Origin: Thioalkalivibrio sp. ALJ12
GTDB taxonomy: Bacteria; Pseudomonadota; Gammaproteobacteria; Ectothiorhodospirales; Ectothiorhodospiraceae
Length of the DNA: 64,000 nt
Reading direction: 5' to 3'
Assembly: GCF_000378305.1 (NCBI RefSeq)
Contig: NZ_KB899538.1
Location: 1,024,001-1,088,000, forward strand
This document shows positions 15,924-37,719 of the stretch, in pieces; the first letter of the stretch is position 1; each line of letters starts with the position of its first letter. A model generated the notes under the pieces. It searched no databases. It was not told where the DNA came from and worked only from the letters and a program-made list of their open reading frames with translations. The translations under genes were made by a program, and so were the position numbers.

Positions 15924-16198
15924 TTAAGGAAATACTGATGAATATACACGCTCGCTGCTTCGTCGCTTTTGCGTGCGAACAAGGCGCGGTGACTGCCGTG
16001 CAGTCATTCTGCACAAAGGAGGCGCAACGCCGCTGTTCCCACGCTTCGGGGTTGGCACCCCAGGTTCCCCGATCCTGCGTTGCGCCCCGAATCAATCAAA
16101 AGCGGGCGGGTAGAACCACTACCCGTTGCACGACGCGCCTTGTCTCGGAAAACCTGGGGTACCAACGCGAGCGTGTATATTCATCAGTGTTTCCTTAA
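15924..16198. repeat. Structured repeat element, copy 1 (MITE-like)
   Basis: A 275-bp non-coding element. Its ends are 32-bp inverted repeats, 15924-15955 and 16167-16198, that match at 31 of 32 positions. Inside are further nested inverted pairs: GTTGGCACCCCAGGTT against AACCTGGGGTACCAAC, and ACAAGGCGCG against CGCGCCTTGT. The whole element could fold into a branched structure. TTAA flanks the GGAAA...TTTCC ends and may be a target duplication. It lies between the divergent kinase and htpX genes. The same element recurs at 37451-37719, and its right end recurs at about 21333-21401. Confidence 0.85.
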
Positions 16199-18358: not shown

Positions 18359-19894
18359 ATGCCCACACGTCTGAACAGTCTGCGCAATGCGGTGTTGCTG
18401 TTTGTCCTGCTGCCCCTGTTGCTGGTGGTCGGCGGCACGGTGACGCTCGGGCTGCAGGAGTTCCAGACGCAGATGGAAAATCGCATGCAGGCCGATATCG
18501 AGCTGGTTGCGCGTTCCATTCGCCTGCCTGTGGCCACCGCGATGATTGACCAGGACGTGACCACGGTGCAGCAGTCGCTGGACTCGTTGTTCCAGATCGA
18601 TCAGGTGTTCGGCGTCTACGTCTACGACGCCCAGGGCGACATGGTCGCCACCAGCGGGCCGCCCAGCCCCACCATTCGCCACCCGGGCGAGGCCCAGGCG
18701 ATCAGCGAGACGGGCAGCCTTGGCGCCTTCGACGAACATCAGGGGCGCGAGGTCTTCTCGTTCTTCCTGCCACTGTCGGATTCCGCCGGGCGGATCGTCG
18801 GCCTGTTGCAGGTGACGCGTGACGTCTCGCCGTTCCGGGCCTATGTCTCGCAGCTGCGCTGGCAGGGGGGCATGGTGATGCTGGCGGTCAGCGTGCTGTT
18901 CTTGCTGGTGGTCCTGATTGGGCACCATCGAGCGGTCGGGCGTCATGTAGCGCGCCTGATCGGTGCCATGCGAGATATTGGCGACGGGCAGCGGGGGCTG
19001 CGCGCCCCGGAGAAGGGACCCTGGGAACTGCGCCGTCTGGCGATCACGATGAACGGGATGCTGGAGCGCCGCGAGGCCTCAGAGGCGGCATTGCAGGCGC
19101 AGCGCGAGGAGCAGGCACGGCTCGAGGAAAAGCTGCGCCACTCGGAAAAGCTGGCTGCCATTGGTCAACTGGCGGCCGGGGTCGCGCATGAGCTGGGGAC
19201 ACCTCTGGGTATTATCGCCGGCCGGGCCCAGCGTGCCGCGCGGCGCTTGCCCGCGGACGACCCCGCGCACAAGGAGATGAAGGAGCTGCAGGCGGAGCTC
19301 GAGCGCGTGGAGACCATCGTCCGCCAGCTCCTGGATTTCGCGCGCCGGAATCCGTTGCAGCAGCGCCCGCTGGAGCTGCAGGGCCTGGTCCGCGAGATCG
19401 TGGCGCGCGTACAGGAACGTGGCAAAGGGCGCGAACAGGTGCGCTTTGATCTGGATGGCGGGGCGTTGACGGTGGCGGCGGACCGGTTGCGTCTGGGGCA
19501 GGCGCTGGAGAATCTGATCGACAACGCTGCGCAGGCTGCTGCCGAATGTGTGCGGGTGAGTTGGCGCTGCCAGGGCGACACGCTCGAATGTGTGATTGCG
19601 GACGATGCCCCGCGCGCGGGGCGCGGAATCTCCGATGAGCAGGCTGACCGCTTGTTCGAGCCCTTTTTTACGACCAAGCCGACGGGCGAGGGGACCGGCC
19701 TGGGGCTGGCGGTCGCACAAGTGGCGCTGGAGGACCATGGTGGCCAGGTAAGGCTGGATCGCAACGATCCGCAGCTCACGCGTTTTGTGGTCACGCTCCC
19801 GCTCGCGTCCGGCGCCTGTCGCGACAGGCAATCGGAACCGTCCGGGGCGGAGTCGGTCCAGGACGGGCACGCAACAGGTGGAGGAGCGGAATGA
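18359..19894 (+). CDS. Membrane sensor histidine kinase (NtrB-like partner of sigma-54 regulator)
   Basis: 511 residues. A first helix at about 9-30, a periplasmic segment of about 140 residues and a second helix at about 170-190 are followed by a HAMP domain (about 190-245). The HisKA box has His277 in AHELGTPLG. The ATPase has the N-box NLIDNAAQAA (385-394) and the G-box GEGTGLGLAVAQ. The H-box form is typical of kinases paired with NtrC-family regulators. Its stop overlaps the regulator start by four bases (ATGA), so the two are co-translated. The signal is unknown. Confidence 0.93.
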   Translation: MPTRLNSLRNAVLLFVLLPLLLVVGGTVTLGLQEFQTQMENRMQADIELVARSIRLPVATAMIDQDVTTVQQSLDSLFQIDQVFGVYVYDAQGDMVATSGPPSPTIRHPGEAQAISETGSLGAFDEHQGREVFSFFLPLSDSAGRIVGLLQVTRDVSPFRAYVSQLRWQGGMVMLAVSVLFLLVVLIGHHRAVGRHVARLIGAMRDIGDGQRGLRAPEKGPWELRRLAITMNGMLERREASEAALQAQREEQARLEEKLRHSEKLAAIGQLAAGVAHELGTPLGIIAGRAQRAARRLPADDPAHKEMKELQAELERVETIVRQLLDFARRNPLQQRPLELQGLVREIVARVQERGKGREQVRFDLDGGALTVAADRLRLGQALENLIDNAAQAAAECVRVSWRCQGDTLECVIADDAPRAGRGISDEQADRLFEPFFTTKPTGEGTGLGLAVAQVALEDHGGQVRLDRNDPQLTRFVVTLPLASGACRDRQSEPSGAESVQDGHATGGGAE

Positions 19895-21318
19895 GCATGG
19901 CCCGGGGTGACGAGCTGAACAATCGCGTGCTGGTCGTCGAAGACGACCGGGGCCATCGCGAGCTCCTGGCCGAAGAGCTGGCCGAAGTGGGCTACGCGGT
20001 CACTGCGGTGGAGACGGCCGAGGAGGCCGAGCAGGTCCTGCGGCAGCAAACGGTTTCCCTGGTGGTCAGCGATCTGCGACTGCCCGGTGCCGATGGCTTC
20101 CATGTGCTGGAGGTGGCGCGCGACACGGTGCCGGTGCCCGGGTTCATCATGCTCACGGGCTTCGGCACGATCGATCAGGCCGTGACAGCGCTGAAGGCGG
20201 GTGCGGACGACTTCCTGACCAAGCCCGTCGATCTGGAGCATCTGCGTCTGGCGGCCGAACGGGTGGCCGAGGCCCGCCGCCTTCGGGCCGAGGTACGCCA
20301 GTATCGCGAGGTCCTTGCGGGCGACGAGAGCTTTCATGGCATGCAGGGCAAGAGCCCGGCGATGCTCAAGCTGCATGACCTGATCCGTCGGATCGCCGCG
20401 GCCGATGGCAGCGTACTCATCACCGGCGAATCGGGGACGGGCAAGGAGCTGGTGGCCCGCGCGCTGCATGCGGAGAGTGCCCGCGCCGATGGCCCATTCA
20501 TCGCGCTGAACTGTGCGGGCATCCCGGAGACCTTGCTGGAGTCGGAGTTGTTGGGGCATGTCGCCGGGGCGTTCAGTGGCGCCAAGGGCGCGCGGCGTGG
20601 CCTGTTTACCGAGGCCGACGGCGGCACACTGTTCCTCGACGAGATCGCCGAGATGCCGGTGGCCATGCAGAGCAAGCTGCTGCGTTTGCTGCAGGACGGG
20701 CGTGTCCGGCCGGTGGGTTCCAACGAGGAGATCGAGACGGACGTGCGCATTGTGGCCGCCACCCACCAGGATCTGCAGGAGCGTATTCGTCACGAGCAGT
20801 TCCGCGAGGACCTCTATTACCGTCTCGAGACCTTTCGTATCGAGATCCCGCCCCTGCGCGATCGCGGTGATGACATCGAGCGCCTGGCGCAGCAGTTCCT
20901 GCGCGAGCAGGCGCTGGCGCGCGGGCTGCCCGTGCGCGAACTCAGCCCGGAGGCCATGCGTGCCCTGCTGCGCTACGGCTTCCCCGGGAACGTCCGCGAA
21001 CTGGCCAGCCTGATGGAACGCGCGGCGACGCTCGCATCCGGGGAGGTGATCGAGCTACGCGATCTGCCCGAGCGTGTGCGCCAGTCCGGGGCCGCTAGCG
21101 GCTCGGGTGAATCGTCCGGGAATGTCTCTGGAGCCGACCTGCCGATACCCGGCGCCGGTGATGACAGCCACTGGCCCAGCCTCGCCGAGGTGGAGCAGGC
21201 CTATCTGCATCGGGTCCTGGAGCATGTCGAGGGCAACAAGCAACGCGCCGCGCGTATCCTGGGGATCGGCCGCAAGACGCTTTATCGCAAGCTGGGCGAG
21301 AGCGAGTCGGATTCCTGA
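19891..21318 (+). CDS. Sigma-54-dependent response regulator (NtrC family)
   Basis: 475 residues. The receiver has phospho-acceptor Asp61 in VSDLRLPG. The AAA+ domain has Walker A GESGTGKE at 179-186, the sigma-54 contact loop GAFSGA at 226-231 (Ser in place of the usual Thr), Walker B GGTLFLDEIAEMP and the R-finger region RIVAATHQDL. A Fis-type helix-turn-helix (NKQRAARILGIGRKTLYRKL) closes the protein. It should activate sigma-54 promoters after phosphorylation by the overlapping kinase. The nearest sigma-54 promoter is at 21617, just downstream of this gene. Confidence 0.95.
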   Translation: MSMARGDELNNRVLVVEDDRGHRELLAEELAEVGYAVTAVETAEEAEQVLRQQTVSLVVSDLRLPGADGFHVLEVARDTVPVPGFIMLTGFGTIDQAVTALKAGADDFLTKPVDLEHLRLAAERVAEARRLRAEVRQYREVLAGDESFHGMQGKSPAMLKLHDLIRRIAAADGSVLITGESGTGKELVARALHAESARADGPFIALNCAGIPETLLESELLGHVAGAFSGAKGARRGLFTEADGGTLFLDEIAEMPVAMQSKLLRLLQDGRVRPVGSNEEIETDVRIVAATHQDLQERIRHEQFREDLYYRLETFRIEIPPLRDRGDDIERLAQQFLREQALARGLPVRELSPEAMRALLRYGFPGNVRELASLMERAATLASGEVIELRDLPERVRQSGAASGSGESSGNVSGADLPIPGAGDDSHWPSLAEVEQAYLHRVLEHVEGNKQRAARILGIGRKTLYRKLGESESDS

Positions 21319-21332
21319 CCGGCGTTATCTGC

Positions 21333-21401
21333 TGCGCGCCGCGCCTGGTCTCGGAAAACCTGGGGTACCAACGCGAGTGTGTACATTAATCAGTGTTTCC
21401 C
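21333..21401. repeat. Partial copy of the structured repeat (right end only)
   Basis: From about 21333 the sequence follows the right end of the 275-bp element: CTCGGAAAACCTGGGGTACC, then an ACGCGAG...GTGTACATTAATCAGTGTTTCC end with a few substitutions. The left end and the centre are absent, so this is a decayed solo end lying between the regulator gene and the sigma-54 promoter. Confidence 0.8.
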
Positions 21402-21449
21402 GAGTGCCTCTGCTCGGCGCCTCTCCACCGTTCACGGTCGGCTCTATCG

Positions 21450-21543
21450 TGACCCTTTTCACCCCTCCCAGCCCCTGATGGGCCGTACTGACCCGGGTCG
21501 CCCTGACCCATGTGTCGTTTTGACCCGCATCTCATTGTGACCC
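21450..21543. promoter_or_regulatory. Five TGACCC repeats, candidate enhancer for the sigma-54 regulator
   Basis: TGACCC occurs at 21450, 21489, 21504, 21521 and 21538 on the + strand. The last four are spaced 15, 17 and 17 bases. The cluster lies about 75-165 bases upstream of the sigma-54 promoter, the typical distance for NtrC-type enhancers. That it binds the adjacent regulator is inferred from position only. Confidence 0.5.
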
Positions 21544-21616
21544 AGGCCCACCTGCAGGCCCTTTGGGTATTCGTAACACATTGAAGATTATAGTTTTGTT
21601 CTCTTTTGGTCGTTTT

Positions 21617-21632
21617 TGGCACGGCTTCTGCT
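21617..21632 (+). promoter_or_regulatory. Sigma-54 (-24/-12) promoter
   Basis: TGGCACGGCTTCTGCT matches the consensus TGGCACG-N4-TTGCW at every defined position but one (C for T before TGC). GG and GC are separated exactly as required. It precedes the Asp-rich secreted protein gene and follows a sigma-54 activator gene. Confidence 0.85.
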
Positions 21633-21715
21633 AATTCCTTGGGTGCAGTCAACCGAAAGCCAATCGAGCCGTTCCGTTGACTGTGCTGAAACCTTAAATG
21701 AAGGAGAGAAGCACA

Positions 21716-22177
21716 ATGTCGACTTTTCGTAAATCTGCTCTAGCAATCGCGATGAGTTCCCTTTTTGCCCTCGGTGGTCTGAGCGCCGCCCAAGCCATGG
21801 GCGAAGGTGCCGAGGCGCCGGATGAAGAAGAGGCGCAGGAAGAACAGGGTGGTATGCCGCCCCAGATGATGGTCCAGGCGGGTGAGCCTGCCGCGCCGCC
21901 GGCCGATGATGACGACGAGGATCGGGACGGCGGTGGCATGCCTCCGCAAATGGCCCAGGCCGGTGAACCGGCTGCTCCGCCCGCGGATGACGACGAAGAC
22001 GAGGGCAACGGCGGTATGCCTCCGCAGATGACTCAGGCTGGTGAGCCGGCTGCCCCGCCCGCGGACGATGATGATGACGACCGCGAAGGCGGTATGCCGC
22101 AGATGGCCCAGGCGGGCGGCGCTGAAGCCCCGGCTGGCGATGATGACGACGACGAAGACGACGCCCCGGATTGGTAA
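21716..22177 (+). CDS. Secreted Asp-rich tandem-repeat protein
   Basis: 153 residues and extremely acidic. A signal peptide (about 1-27, ending AAQA) is followed by about four imperfect repeats of 25-28 residues. Each starts GGMPPQM, continues with QAGEPAAPPAD and ends in a run of four to seven Asp/Glu. The family is not recognised; the composition suggests a disordered, cation-binding (perhaps calcium-binding) periplasmic or exported protein. ATG 21716 is chosen because AAGGAGAG lies eight bases upstream; an upstream ATG at 21698 precedes that ribosome site. The gene lies directly behind the sigma-54 promoter. Confidence 0.85.
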   Translation: MSTFRKSALAIAMSSLFALGGLSAAQAMGEGAEAPDEEEAQEEQGGMPPQMMVQAGEPAAPPADDDDEDRDGGGMPPQMAQAGEPAAPPADDDEDEGNGGMPPQMTQAGEPAAPPADDDDDDREGGMPQMAQAGGAEAPAGDDDDDEDDAPDW

Positions 22178-22274
22178 GGGGCTAACGGGCAAGCCGGGCA
22201 GTGTTCGTCTGCCCGGCCCCCATCTCTGAGGCAGGAGCCTCGAGTTTTTTCACCCAGAGGAAGAGGTAGACATT

Positions 22275-22805
22275 ATGAGCTTTCGCAAGACCGCACTCGC
22301 ATTTGCTTTGACTTCCATGTTCGCGATCGGTGGCGTGGCGACCGCGCAGACCGGCGACATGGGTGGTGCCCAGGGTGGCGCTGAGGGTGCCCCGCCGCAG
22401 GGTGGTGCCGAAGGTGGTGCTCCGCCGCAGGGTGGCCAGCCGCCGGAAGGTGGTGCCCAGGGTGGTCAGCCGCCTGAAGGTGGCGCTCCGCCGGAAGGTG
22501 GTGCTGCTGGTGCGCCGCCCGCTCAGCAGGCCCCTGAAGTGGACCTGAGCGAAGAAGATATCGACACGTTCGTAGGTGCCTTTGTGGCCGTCCAGGAAGT
22601 GCGCGAAGACTTCGCCAACCGCCTGCAGGAAGCCGAGGATGAAACCGAGGCCCAGTCCATGCAGCAGGAAGCCCAGGACGAAATGGTCAGCGCTGTTGAA
22701 GACGCCGGCATGTCCGTCGAGGAATACAATGAAGTGGCCATGGCTCTGCAGAACGATCCCGAGTTGATGCAGGAAGTCCAGGAGCGCGCCGAAGCGGAGA
22801 TGTAA
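22275..22805 (+). CDS. Secreted DUF4168 protein with Gly/Pro/Gln-rich linker
   Basis: 176 residues. The signal peptide (MSFRKTALAFALTSMFAIGG) is almost the same as that of the preceding gene. Residues about 26-88 are a low-complexity stretch of GGAPPQGG / GGQPPEGG units. The C-terminal domain (about 90-176) has the DUF4168 pattern: EEDIDTFVGAFVAVQEVRE near the start and DAGMSVEEYNEVAMALQNDPEL near the end. Function is unknown. A good ribosome site (GAGGAAGAGG) precedes ATG 22275. It is 97 bases after the Asp-rich gene and probably on the same transcript, ending at tandem hairpins from 22820. Confidence 0.88.
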   Translation: MSFRKTALAFALTSMFAIGGVATAQTGDMGGAQGGAEGAPPQGGAEGGAPPQGGQPPEGGAQGGQPPEGGAPPEGGAAGAPPAQQAPEVDLSEEDIDTFVGAFVAVQEVREDFANRLQEAEDETEAQSMQQEAQDEMVSAVEDAGMSVEEYNEVAMALQNDPELMQEVQERAEAEM

Positions 22806-22819
22806 TCCATCCCCGCTCC

Positions 22820-22876
22820 GGACCCCGGGCCTCGCGCCCGGGTCCAGAAAGGGCCGGCCTTCGTGCCGGCCTTTTT
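22820..22876 (+). terminator. Tandem hairpin terminator after the secreted-protein pair
   Basis: Two hairpins in a row: 22820-22845 (GGACCC...GGGTCC, GC-rich) and 22848-22876 (AAAGGGCCGGC / GCCGGCCTTTTT), the second with a T-run. It closes the transcript 15 bases after the DUF4168 stop. Confidence 0.9.
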
Positions 22877-23917: not shown

Positions 23918-23991
23918 TGGGGGATCGTCTAGCGGTAGGACTACGGACTCTGACTCCGTCAACCCAGGTTCGAATCCTGGTCCCCCAGCCA
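23918..23991 (+). tRNA. tRNA-Gln (CTG anticodon)
   Basis: A complete cloverleaf with acceptor TGGGGGA / TCCCCCA, anticodon stem ACGGA / TCCGT around loop CTCTGAC (anticodon CTG), T-arm AGGTTCGAATCCT and an encoded CCA end. The 19-base 3' end (23974-23992) is repeated downstream at 24146-24164 and 24370-24388. Confidence 0.97.
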
Positions 23992-23992
23992 T

Positions 23993-24031
23993 CCATAGAG
24001 AAGGGCCCCCTCGCGGGGCCCTTTTCTATGG
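23993..24031 (+). terminator. Long hairpin after tRNA-Gln
   Basis: CCATAGAGAAGGGCCCC pairs with GGGGCCCTTTTCTATGG around TCGC, a 17-base-pair stem with one G-T pair. The T-run is inside the 3' arm. It begins two bases after the tRNA CCA end and likely serves as processing or termination signal. Its right half lies within the direct repeats. Confidence 0.75.
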
Positions 24032-24164
24032 ATATTTGAGCGAGTCCGGGGTTCGAACCTGGAAGGTTCGGCGCAGCGAGGCGGAGCACTGCACGCGCGC
24101 TGCGCGTGCAGCCCCGAAGGGGTGAGGCGGCGTAGCCGCCGAATCATCCTGGTCCCCCAGCCAT
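24006..24164. repeat. 159-bp direct repeat, copy A, ending in a tRNA-Gln 3' fragment
   Basis: Copy A of a 159-base unit, identical to 24230-24388 except for one base (a G/A difference near 24081). It contains a GGTTCGGCG...CGCCGAATC outer stem enclosing three GC hairpins (CTGCACGCGC / GCGCGTGCAG, CCCC / GGGG, GGCGGC / GCCGCC). It ends in a 19-base copy of the tRNA-Gln 3' end including CCA (24146-24164). Short frames across it are not credible genes. Confidence 0.9.
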
Positions 24165-24229
24165 GGCGGTGTGCCCCTCGACGGGGCTCACCGCCATTTG
24201 CTTTGGACTGGTCGTTACTTCAGGGAAGG

Positions 24230-24388
24230 CCCCCTCGCGGGGCCCTTTTCTATGGATATTTGAGCGAGTCCGGGGTTCGAACCTGGAAGGTTCGGCGCAG
24301 CGAAGCGGAGCACTGCACGCGCGCTGCGCGTGCAGCCCCGAAGGGGTGAGGCGGCGTAGCCGCCGAATCATCCTGGTCCCCCAGCCAT
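24230..24388. repeat. 159-bp direct repeat, copy B, ending in a tRNA-Gln 3' fragment
   Basis: Copy B of the unit at 24006-24164, offset by 224 bases, with one mismatch. It also ends in a copy of the tRNA 3' end (24370-24388). The 65 bases between the copies (24165-24229) include a GGCGGTG...CACCGCC inverted repeat. The following 24389-24622 holds nothing recognisable except the ribosome site of the next gene. Confidence 0.9.
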
Positions 24389-24622
24389 CCCCGCCTGGAG
24401 CCGCTATCGGCCCTTGCGGGTCGAGCATGGCGATGCGGCGATCTCTGCCGCTGGCTTTCCCTCCCCGCGCTCCAAACTCGCTACACTCCCCTGATCGGCG
24501 CCCCGCCACCCGCATCCAGCGGGAATTCTTGCGGCCCCTCTGCGTCGAACCCTTCAGGAATGGCGCGAACGTCGACTCGATGTGCGCCAGATAAAACCAA
24601 AAAACAGGAGAGGAGAGAGTCC

Positions 24623-37450: not shown

Positions 37451-37719
37451 AGGGAAACACTGATGAATGTACACGCTCGCGCTCGAGTCGCTTTTGCGTG
37501 CGAACAAGGCGCGGTGACTGCCGTGCAGCATTCTGCGCAAGGGAGCCGCAACGCCGTTCCCACGCAAAAGAGGCCGAGCCCCTTCGGGGTTGGCACCCCA
37601 GGTTCCCCGATCCTGCGTTGCGGCCCTTGCCGGTAGAGCCACTACCGGCTGCGCACCGCGCCTTGTCTCGGAAAACCTGGGGTGCCAACGCGAGCGTGTA
37701 CATTCATCAGTGTTTCCCT
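37451..37719. repeat. Structured repeat element, copy 2 (MITE-like)
   Basis: A 269-bp element with 30-bp perfect terminal inverted repeats (37451-37480 and 37690-37719). It is about the same as copy 1 at 15924-16198 in ends and interior, but carries a short extra segment (GAGGCCGAGCCCC, about 37569-37581) before the CTTCGGGGTTGGCACC core. It sits in the divergent region between purM and the DUF2066 gene, 108 bases from the purM start and 48 bases before the next start. No coding capacity is evident. Confidence 0.88.

Follow-up and report, generated by a model that had tools for sequence, protein, structure and literature searches.

What is controlled by a membrane histidine kinase and its overlapping NtrC-family regulator when two exported proteins are encoded just beyond them? 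The question is raised by a locus in Thioalkalivibrio sp. ALJ12, a member of a genus of haloalkaliphilic sulfur oxidisers. The locus lies in a 64,000-nucleotide stretch of contig NZ_KB899538.1 (positions 1,024,001 to 1,088,000), here called the window, which is part of a 2.78-Mb genome (G000). A first-pass annotation of the window proposed a self-contained sigma-54 circuit in which the pair acts on genes for an Asp-rich repeat protein and a DUF4168 protein. The link from the pair to these outputs is strongly supported by comparative genomics (conserved order, promoter, operator, trans sites and regulator clade) and appears highly probable. The genes, a conserved layout of operator, IHF-like site and promoter, sites in trans and co-inheritance of the components are all read in the genome sequences. 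Together they predict a small dispersed regulon, and the circuit is not self-contained.

Promoter and operator

The proposed promoter, TGGCACGGCTTCTGCT, matches 11 of the 12 specified positions of the sigma-54 consensus, or 15 of 16, as first annotated, if the N positions are counted. The bare pattern is weak: 25 genome sites have one mismatch or none vs 13 for a reversed control. The promoter is convincing because it is conserved in place, the -24/-12 letters being nearly invariant in 30 aligned promoters.

The five TGACCC repeats described as the enhancer are all present on the plus strand, within 94 bases (Table 1). In 200 first-order Markov simulations of the 64-kb window the maximum per 94 bp was three, seen twice. 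However, the repeats are half-sites of an inverted repeat, CATGTGYCA-N3-TGRCACATG, and not the operator unit. Of 30 orthologous promoters, 29 have a conserved block 106-110 bp upstream of their -24 element, L089 being the exception; the search pattern had been widened by hand so as to take in the L073, L074, L082 and L084 cores. In the clade of the window it reads about TGACCCGGGTCG-N3-TGACCCATGTGTCRTTNTGACCC. For example, the operators of L261, L260 and L090 are, respectively, CATGTGTCA-GCA-TGACACATC, CATGTGCCA-TTA-TGACACATG, and CATGTGTAT-TTA-TGACACATG followed by TGGCATCCGTCTTGCA. Since the core shared across distant genera is the inverted repeat, TGACCC is regarded as a degenerate half-site.

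Between operator and promoter lies an IHF-like element. At offset -43 its mean score over 30 orthologous and two paralogous promoters is 6.31 of 9; the next best offset scores 4.38, and all offsets together have a mean of 2.87 (standard deviation 0.63). The scoring used WATCARNNNNTTR, which we take to be the IHF consensus. Operator, IHF and sigma-54 promoter, in that order, is the usual arrangement for NtrC-type activation. With its conserved -24/-12 promoter and conserved upstream activator sites, the operon is predicted to be sigma-54 dependent. A weaker hairpin (22227-22242) separates the two output genes and a terminator-like hairpin follows the second, so co-transcription is likely, not certain.

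Table 1. Features of the kinase-regulator locus and its output genes, in window coordinates
Feature	Position	Strand	Basis or remark
Sensor histidine kinase: membrane helices, predicted periplasmic single-Cache domain, HAMP (below cut-off), HisKA, HATPase	18359..19894	+	Pfam, model
NtrC-family response regulator: REC, sigma-54 AAA+, HTH_8, GAFSGA loop	19891..21318	+	Pfam
Upstream activator array: TGACCC half-sites at 21489, 21504, 21521, 21538	21489..21543	+	fifth at 21450
Core inverted-repeat operator CATGTGTCG-TTT-TGACCCGCA	21509..21529	.	alignment of orthologous promoters
IHF-like site TAACACATTGAAG, 7/9 to the reverse of WATCARNNNNTTR, 43 bp before the -24 element	21574..21586	-	
Sigma-54 promoter TGGCACGGCTTCTGCT	21617..21632 (G000:C1:1045617-1045632)	+	
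Exported Asp-rich repeat protein: four GGMP(P)QM..QAG repeats, C-terminus DDEDDAPDW	21716..22177	+	
Exported DUF4168 protein: Gly/Pro-rich linker, four-helix domain	22275..22805	+	
Terminator-like hairpin, 3' of the DUF4168 gene	22847..22876	+	

Conservation in the genus

The annotated order of sensor, regulator, enhancer, promoter and exported output is real and is kept in relatives. The kinase and regulator open reading frames do overlap, by four bases, and both output genes are present downstream. A close regulator orthologue (at least 66% identity) was found in 28 of the 29 other genus genomes, the exception being G024; those of G014 and G028 are cut short. DUF4168 is present in 26 of the 29, and the three misses are assemblies 58-80% complete. 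The order kinase, regulator, DUF4168 is kept in every fetched genus block not cut by a contig end. The two outputs differ in this respect: DUF4168 is conserved, whereas a close Asp-rich gene (at least 70% identity) is confined to the four nearest relatives (G029, G001, G021 and G005). Two further genus genomes carry a different low-complexity gene at its position.

A sigma-54 site follows the regulator tail in 30 of 31 loci, and the miss, L091, has a broken regulator frame. Left out of the 31 were L090 (divergent DUF4168), L062, L086 and L097 (contig-end cuts) and L092 (no pair); L090, from G055, has no site downstream of the regulator, its operator and promoter being on the other side. The distance from regulator stop to sigma-54 site is 126-140 bases in 22 of the 30 and 163-460 in eight; it is 298 in the window, where it contains an interspersed repeat.

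This repeat, with GGAAAACCTGGGGTACCAACGCGAGT, occurs at window positions 16147-16172, 21353-21378 and 37670-37695 (three copies within two mismatches; none in 100 shuffles). One copy separates the regulator stop from the operator, and other loci of the genus show similar pieces. In L091 and in L242 (T. denitrificans ALJD) the regulator gene is broken by a frame change near residues 245-260, either because it is a pseudogene or through an error in assembly; the operator and promoter of L242 are still matched by the promoter profile described below (expectation value, E, 6.2e-10).

Predicted targets in trans

A profile (R1) was built from the sequences of 30 cognate promoters, and from nothing else; the paralogous promoter was not included. 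In the window genome it finds the cognate site (E 3.3e-26), a reverse-strand match on the same operator (2.1e-4) and a site upstream of a second, unlinked DUF4168 gene (G000:C2:574908-575059, E 2.3e-9); nothing else falls below E 0.1. This strong unlinked site shares operator and promoter with the cognate one and contradicts the annotation of the circuit as self-contained; further targets in trans are predicted in relatives.

In the 30 genus genomes the profile gives 17 non-cognate matches at E 1e-3 or below, 16 of which were read downstream. Fourteen of the 17 precede either a second DUF4168 gene (five) or a small exported low-complexity protein or lipoprotein (nine). The nine comprise four Gly/Ala-rich proteins whose acidic tail has PDW as its last residues (APDW in three), like the acidic protein of the window; three Met-Pro-Gly repeat proteins, two of which run off the contig or stretch end; and two acidic lipoproteins. 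Seven more matches fall between E 1e-3 and 0.01, four of them read downstream, and two of these, G018:C38 (1.4e-3) and G004:C4 (3.1e-3), fit the same pattern. Since nothing but promoter DNA went into the profile, resemblance among the proteins encoded downstream counts as independent evidence.

Membership of the regulon has limits. At the low-complexity exported paralogue G000:C2:557299 (L093) neither operator nor sigma-54 site is visible, and the profile gives no match; the regulon therefore leaves out some proteins of this type. At G000:C1:162131, a GAF-GGDEF-like gene preceded by TGACCCATGCGTCA and a sigma-54-like site, TGGCACAAAATTCGCT, is unlisted by the profile up to E 10. The sigma-54-like site (L100:1500-1700) recurs in the window genome and its four nearest relatives beside TTGCCACCC repeats, and the upstream part of the G005 counterpart, CATGTGTCA-ATTTAT-TGACACC, has the same half-sites with a 6-base spacer. 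The gene is possibly the target of another activator or a weak third target, and is not claimed here.

A separate observation concerns L157 (G007:C2:15418-15506), where a sigma-54 site, TGGCACGAGGTCTGCA, precedes an exported protein that is PEP-CTERM-like by eye; the profile match is weak and partial (E 0.0057).

Distribution beyond the genus

PF13767, the DUF4168 family, was found in 29 of 299 sampled Pseudomonadota genomes. An alignment scan for DUF4168 gave 144 confirmed loci, and the 80 most similar to that of the window were kept. A regulator lies within 6 kb of DUF4168 in 53 of the 80, and the same kinase sensor is present in 52 of these (L231 is cut). Collinear layouts occur in Thioalkalivibrio, Ectothiorhodospira and a Chromatiaceae metagenome-assembled genome (MAG); divergent ones occur in Pseudomonas, Halopseudomonas, Aquisalimonas, Ectothiorhodospiraceae MAGs, a Wenzhouxiangellaceae MAG and a Lysobacteraceae MAG. 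A strict sigma-54 scan before DUF4168 (at least 10 of 12 positions) was positive in 17 of the 35 pair-bearing loci scanned, most misses being Pseudomonadaceae.

Because the 80 loci had been chosen by DUF4168, a scan was also made with the regulator alone. An orthologue at E 1e-108 or below was found in 14 of 369 gammaproteobacterial genomes. DUF4168 adjoins the pair or the regulator in 12 of the 14 (the window, G023, G035, G055 and eight of ten newly fetched loci), and the kinase sensor adjoins the regulator in all ten new loci. In G105, DUF4168 is about 9 kb away, and the gene after the profile match that adjoins the regulator (E 6.3e-6) encodes an acidic Met-rich lipoprotein. The corresponding match in G101 (E 2.3e-9) precedes a family-3 membrane acyltransferase (PF01757, 73.2 bits; L333:7382-8416). 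Both products look envelope-facing though they are not DUF4168.

A tree was built from 57 full-length, dereplicated regulators linked to DUF4168, six of which were chosen from the first blocks fetched, and 20 other NtrC-family regulators. All 57 lie on one side of a branch with support 100/100; several of the other regulators are on long branches, and the ten from the regulator-only scan are absent from the tree. Further copies of DUF4168 appear to be under the same control. E. marina and E. haloalkaliphila have the pair with one DUF4168 gene, and a second, with no pair within 6 kb, has profile matches (E 2.5e-9 and 2.9e-4). The MAG locus L243 has two tandem DUF4168 genes with a match each (7.8e-5 and 1.2e-3).

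Ten neighbouring proteins scanned in other genomes show no common theme. They include one each of an HlyD-type exporter, a sodium symporter, a TPR/C39 peptidase-like protein, Tex and an acyltransferase; of the five with no match, four are frames that may not be genes and the fifth is the L331 lipoprotein. A fused kinase-regulator considered in G417 (a 970-residue frame) was dropped: the long frame is the regulator frame open upstream, since the kinase of that locus is encoded in a different frame (4472-5965 in L325).

Kinase and regulator

The regulator carries the three parts of an NtrC-family response regulator, all over the Pfam cut-offs: receiver (PF00072, 85.3 bits), sigma-54 AAA+ (PF00158, 231.7 bits) and Fis-type helix-turn-helix (PF02954, 51.8 bits). 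The genome has one copy of rpoN. In the kinase, HisKA and HATPase are over cut-off and HAMP is below. The sensor part is modelled as a single-Cache domain (predicted local distance difference test score, pLDDT, 80.4). The top matches among solved structures include the WalK, KinD and CitA sensors, from which a ligand is not identifiable. When the sensor part was aligned with 29 selected relatives, no His or Cys was found in the invariant or near-invariant columns. An ion stimulus, suggested in the first-pass annotation, is unsupported by this general Cache fold, and metal or ion sensing is not claimed.

The best NCBIfam models for the regulator are NtrC (427 bits) and AtoC (417 bits), and the Cache fold also occurs in the metabolite sensors CitA and DctB. 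These likenesses would suit a regulator of unrelated metabolism, of NtrC, AtoC or dicarboxylate type, with the neighbouring outputs incidental. However, both scores are far below the curated cut-offs, the genome has just two strong sites, and operator and promoter recur before exported proteins in trans; a metabolic regulator is very improbable.

Observations that weigh against the circuit

Several observations speak against a circuit in which this pair drives these outputs from one conserved switch. The first concerns the sigma-54 contact loop of the window regulator, which is GAFSGA, not GAFTGA. GAFSGA is among the loop variants listed as compatible with activation (PMC4641369). Among the 57 clade members the loop is GAFSGA in 29, GAFTGA in 25, GAYTGA in one and GSFTGA in two. 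GAFSGA accounts for 29 of 31 rows in the Thioalkalivibrio-Ectothiorhodospira branch, the other two being GSFTGA, and GAFTGA for 25 of 26 rows in the other branch. In the accessible portion of a T. thiocyanoxidans ARh2 study, a table of 11 enhancer-binding regulators marks GAFSGA for G372_RS0104625 alone; its log fold change is -0.4 (thiocyanate vs thiosulfate), and it is listed there as a regulator with no target proposed (PMC5744179). It is probably the ARh2 orthologue of the window regulator, as it has the sole GAFSGA in the table and the orthologue in the ARh2 genome (G021) has a GAFSGA loop.

The DNA sites are also imperfect. The unlinked DUF4168 promoter of the window genome is without a good IHF-like site. 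Two of the 17 non-cognate matches stand before genes of other kinds and have no sigma-54 site in place; in the weaker E band G008:C187 does not fit and G007:C2 is partial and doubtful. In nine Pseudomonadaceae intergenic regions read by eye (L248, L250, L259, L262, L263, L264, L267, L273 and L274), TGGCAC or TGGCAT is followed at -12 by TGGAT or TGGAA (seven), TGTAT (one) or TGAAT (one), and never by TGC; this promoter-like sequence is possibly a sigma-54 promoter with an altered -12 element.

The third group concerns linkage. Twenty-seven of the 80 kept loci have no regulator within 6 kb of DUF4168, many of them in Halomonas, Salinicola and Cobetia; some (L210, L285 and L286) are truncated at a contig end. 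In G055 the search for a kinase sensor next to the regulator found none. G033 has DUF4168 without the pair or the site, and G024, an 80%-complete assembly, has a trans site but no close regulator. In G101 the promoter near the regulator is predicted to drive the acyltransferase, the DUF4168 genes being elsewhere in the genome.

Output proteins

Both output proteins start with a signal peptide, judged by eye. Up to E 1, neither Pfam nor NCBIfam gives a match for the Asp-rich protein, whose mature part is 96% GAPEDQMST with a net charge of -39. The second protein is DUF4168, at 66.7 bits vs a cut-off of 25.8. For ten outputs computed, two of them DUF4168, mature GAPEDQMST content is 88-99% in the eight low-complexity proteins and 72-83% in DUF4168, and all ten have a net charge of -10 to -39 and are without Cys.

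The DUF4168 structure is modelled as four helices (pLDDT 84.9). Foldseek gave no match at E 0.001 or below, and VIA-align gave scores of Z below 6, to helical bundles, which have little meaning. ZraP, CpxP and Spy are not among the fold-search rows listed, which excludes nothing. A fold-based function was dropped in the absence of a convincing structural relative.

DUF4168 might nevertheless act as ZraP or CpxP does, mainly as a periplasmic accessory, binding to the sensor of the kinase and damping the signal, with the acidic proteins as by-products. The protein is helical, exported and small, and of the two outputs it is the one that remains with the pair. Its gene and those of kinase and regulator diverge from a shared intergenic region in Halopseudomonas, Aquisalimonas and others, as do zraP and zraSR; in L248, L249 and L258, 1.7-2.7 kb lie between DUF4168 and the pair. 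However, DUF4168 occurs with no pair nearby in Halomonadaceae, the lack of a fold match leaves no structural tie to ZraP or CpxP, and the extra copies under the same control, unlinked or tandem, suggest an effector. Such feedback is possible, and we regard it as doubtful.

Relation to described systems

The ZraSR-ZraP system of E. coli resembles the window locus in its kinase, sigma-54 regulator and adjacent small exported protein, and its divergent layout is seen in part of the DUF4168 family. ZraP itself belongs to a metal-resistance or LTXXQ family. The window locus differs in that its small protein is DUF4168, without a match to a metal-resistance or LTXXQ family up to E 1, its layout is collinear and its regulon has several genes. 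Its kinase scores 152.1 bits against the cut-off of 479 of the ZraS equivalog model, and its regulator 366.9 against the 760 of the ZraR equivalog model, both far below. Zra is described as an envelope stress system (PMC10848872).

PrsK/PrsR with RpoN shares the logic of the circuit. Two reports describe a membrane kinase, an NtrC-type regulator, an enhancer motif and -24/-12 promoters before dispersed genes for many exported proteins (PMC1569441; PMC9850573), and the described pepA promoter also reads TGGCAC and CTGCTT, as does that of the window. The pair could on these grounds be PrsK/PrsR itself, with the outputs as matrix proteins handled by exosortase. However, the regulator falls below the PrsR model TIGR02915 (363.7 bits vs a cut-off of 502.6), neither output has a PEP-CTERM match up to E 1, the sensor is a single-Cache domain, and the described PEP-CTERM motif 1 ends in TTTACA, unlike CATGTGYCA-N3-TGRCACATG. 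The best 25 of 81 models listed do not include the PrsK model TIGR02916, which weighs neither for nor against PrsK. A PEP-CTERM-type regulon is most improbable.

The annotation that no described system has these outputs holds for the literature searched, in which neither the name DUF4168 nor PF13767 is mentioned and no study of this sensor, regulator and DNA switch recurring in many related bacteria was found. The regulatory logic is known, from PrsK/PrsR with RpoN and from ZraPSR. The output family is uncharacterised and the operator is newly defined.

Proposed mechanism

Taken as a whole, from kinase to envelope output, the following circuit is in our judgement probable. The Cache-domain membrane kinase would sense a condition of the periplasm or envelope and phosphorylate the activator encoded by its overlapping partner gene. 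The activator would then bind CATGTGYCA-N3-TGRCACATG and the extra half-sites about 108 bp upstream of the sigma-54 promoter, IHF would bend the DNA between operator and promoter, and the activator would open the promoter. In the window genome this would drive the operon for the Asp-rich and DUF4168 proteins and, in trans, the unlinked second DUF4168 gene; in relatives it would drive other small exported acidic low-complexity proteins. The output would most likely remodel the outer envelope or extracellular matrix of these haloalkaline cells, a role that we put forward tentatively, with somewhat more doubt than confidence. Sigma-54 is tied to exopolysaccharide, lipoprotein and other exterior functions in a comparative study (PMC3162934), which fits an envelope role but is no proof of it.

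The range of output types (Asp-tailed ..PDW proteins, Met-Pro-Gly repeats and acidic lipoproteins) suggests that the upstream switch stays constant while exported low-complexity outputs turn over. More speculatively, and with a good deal of doubt, a deeply conserved set of kinase, regulator and operator may keep DUF4168 as its single constant partner and repeatedly gain unrelated, fast-evolving, strongly acidic low-complexity exported proteins. Haloalkaliphiles would then possess a dedicated polyanion-coat response, with selection acting on the switch and on the bulk chemistry but not on protein sequence. DUF4168 gains a regulator, an operator, a promoter and partner genes, which makes its role directly testable. 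Furthermore, the sigma-54 signalling module spans Thioalkalivibrio to Halopseudomonas, and its targets in the genus are predictable from one promoter profile.

Other features of the window

Downstream of the locus, at 23918-24390, the 3' end and trailer of a tRNA-Gln are repeated in two near-identical stretches that come after it.

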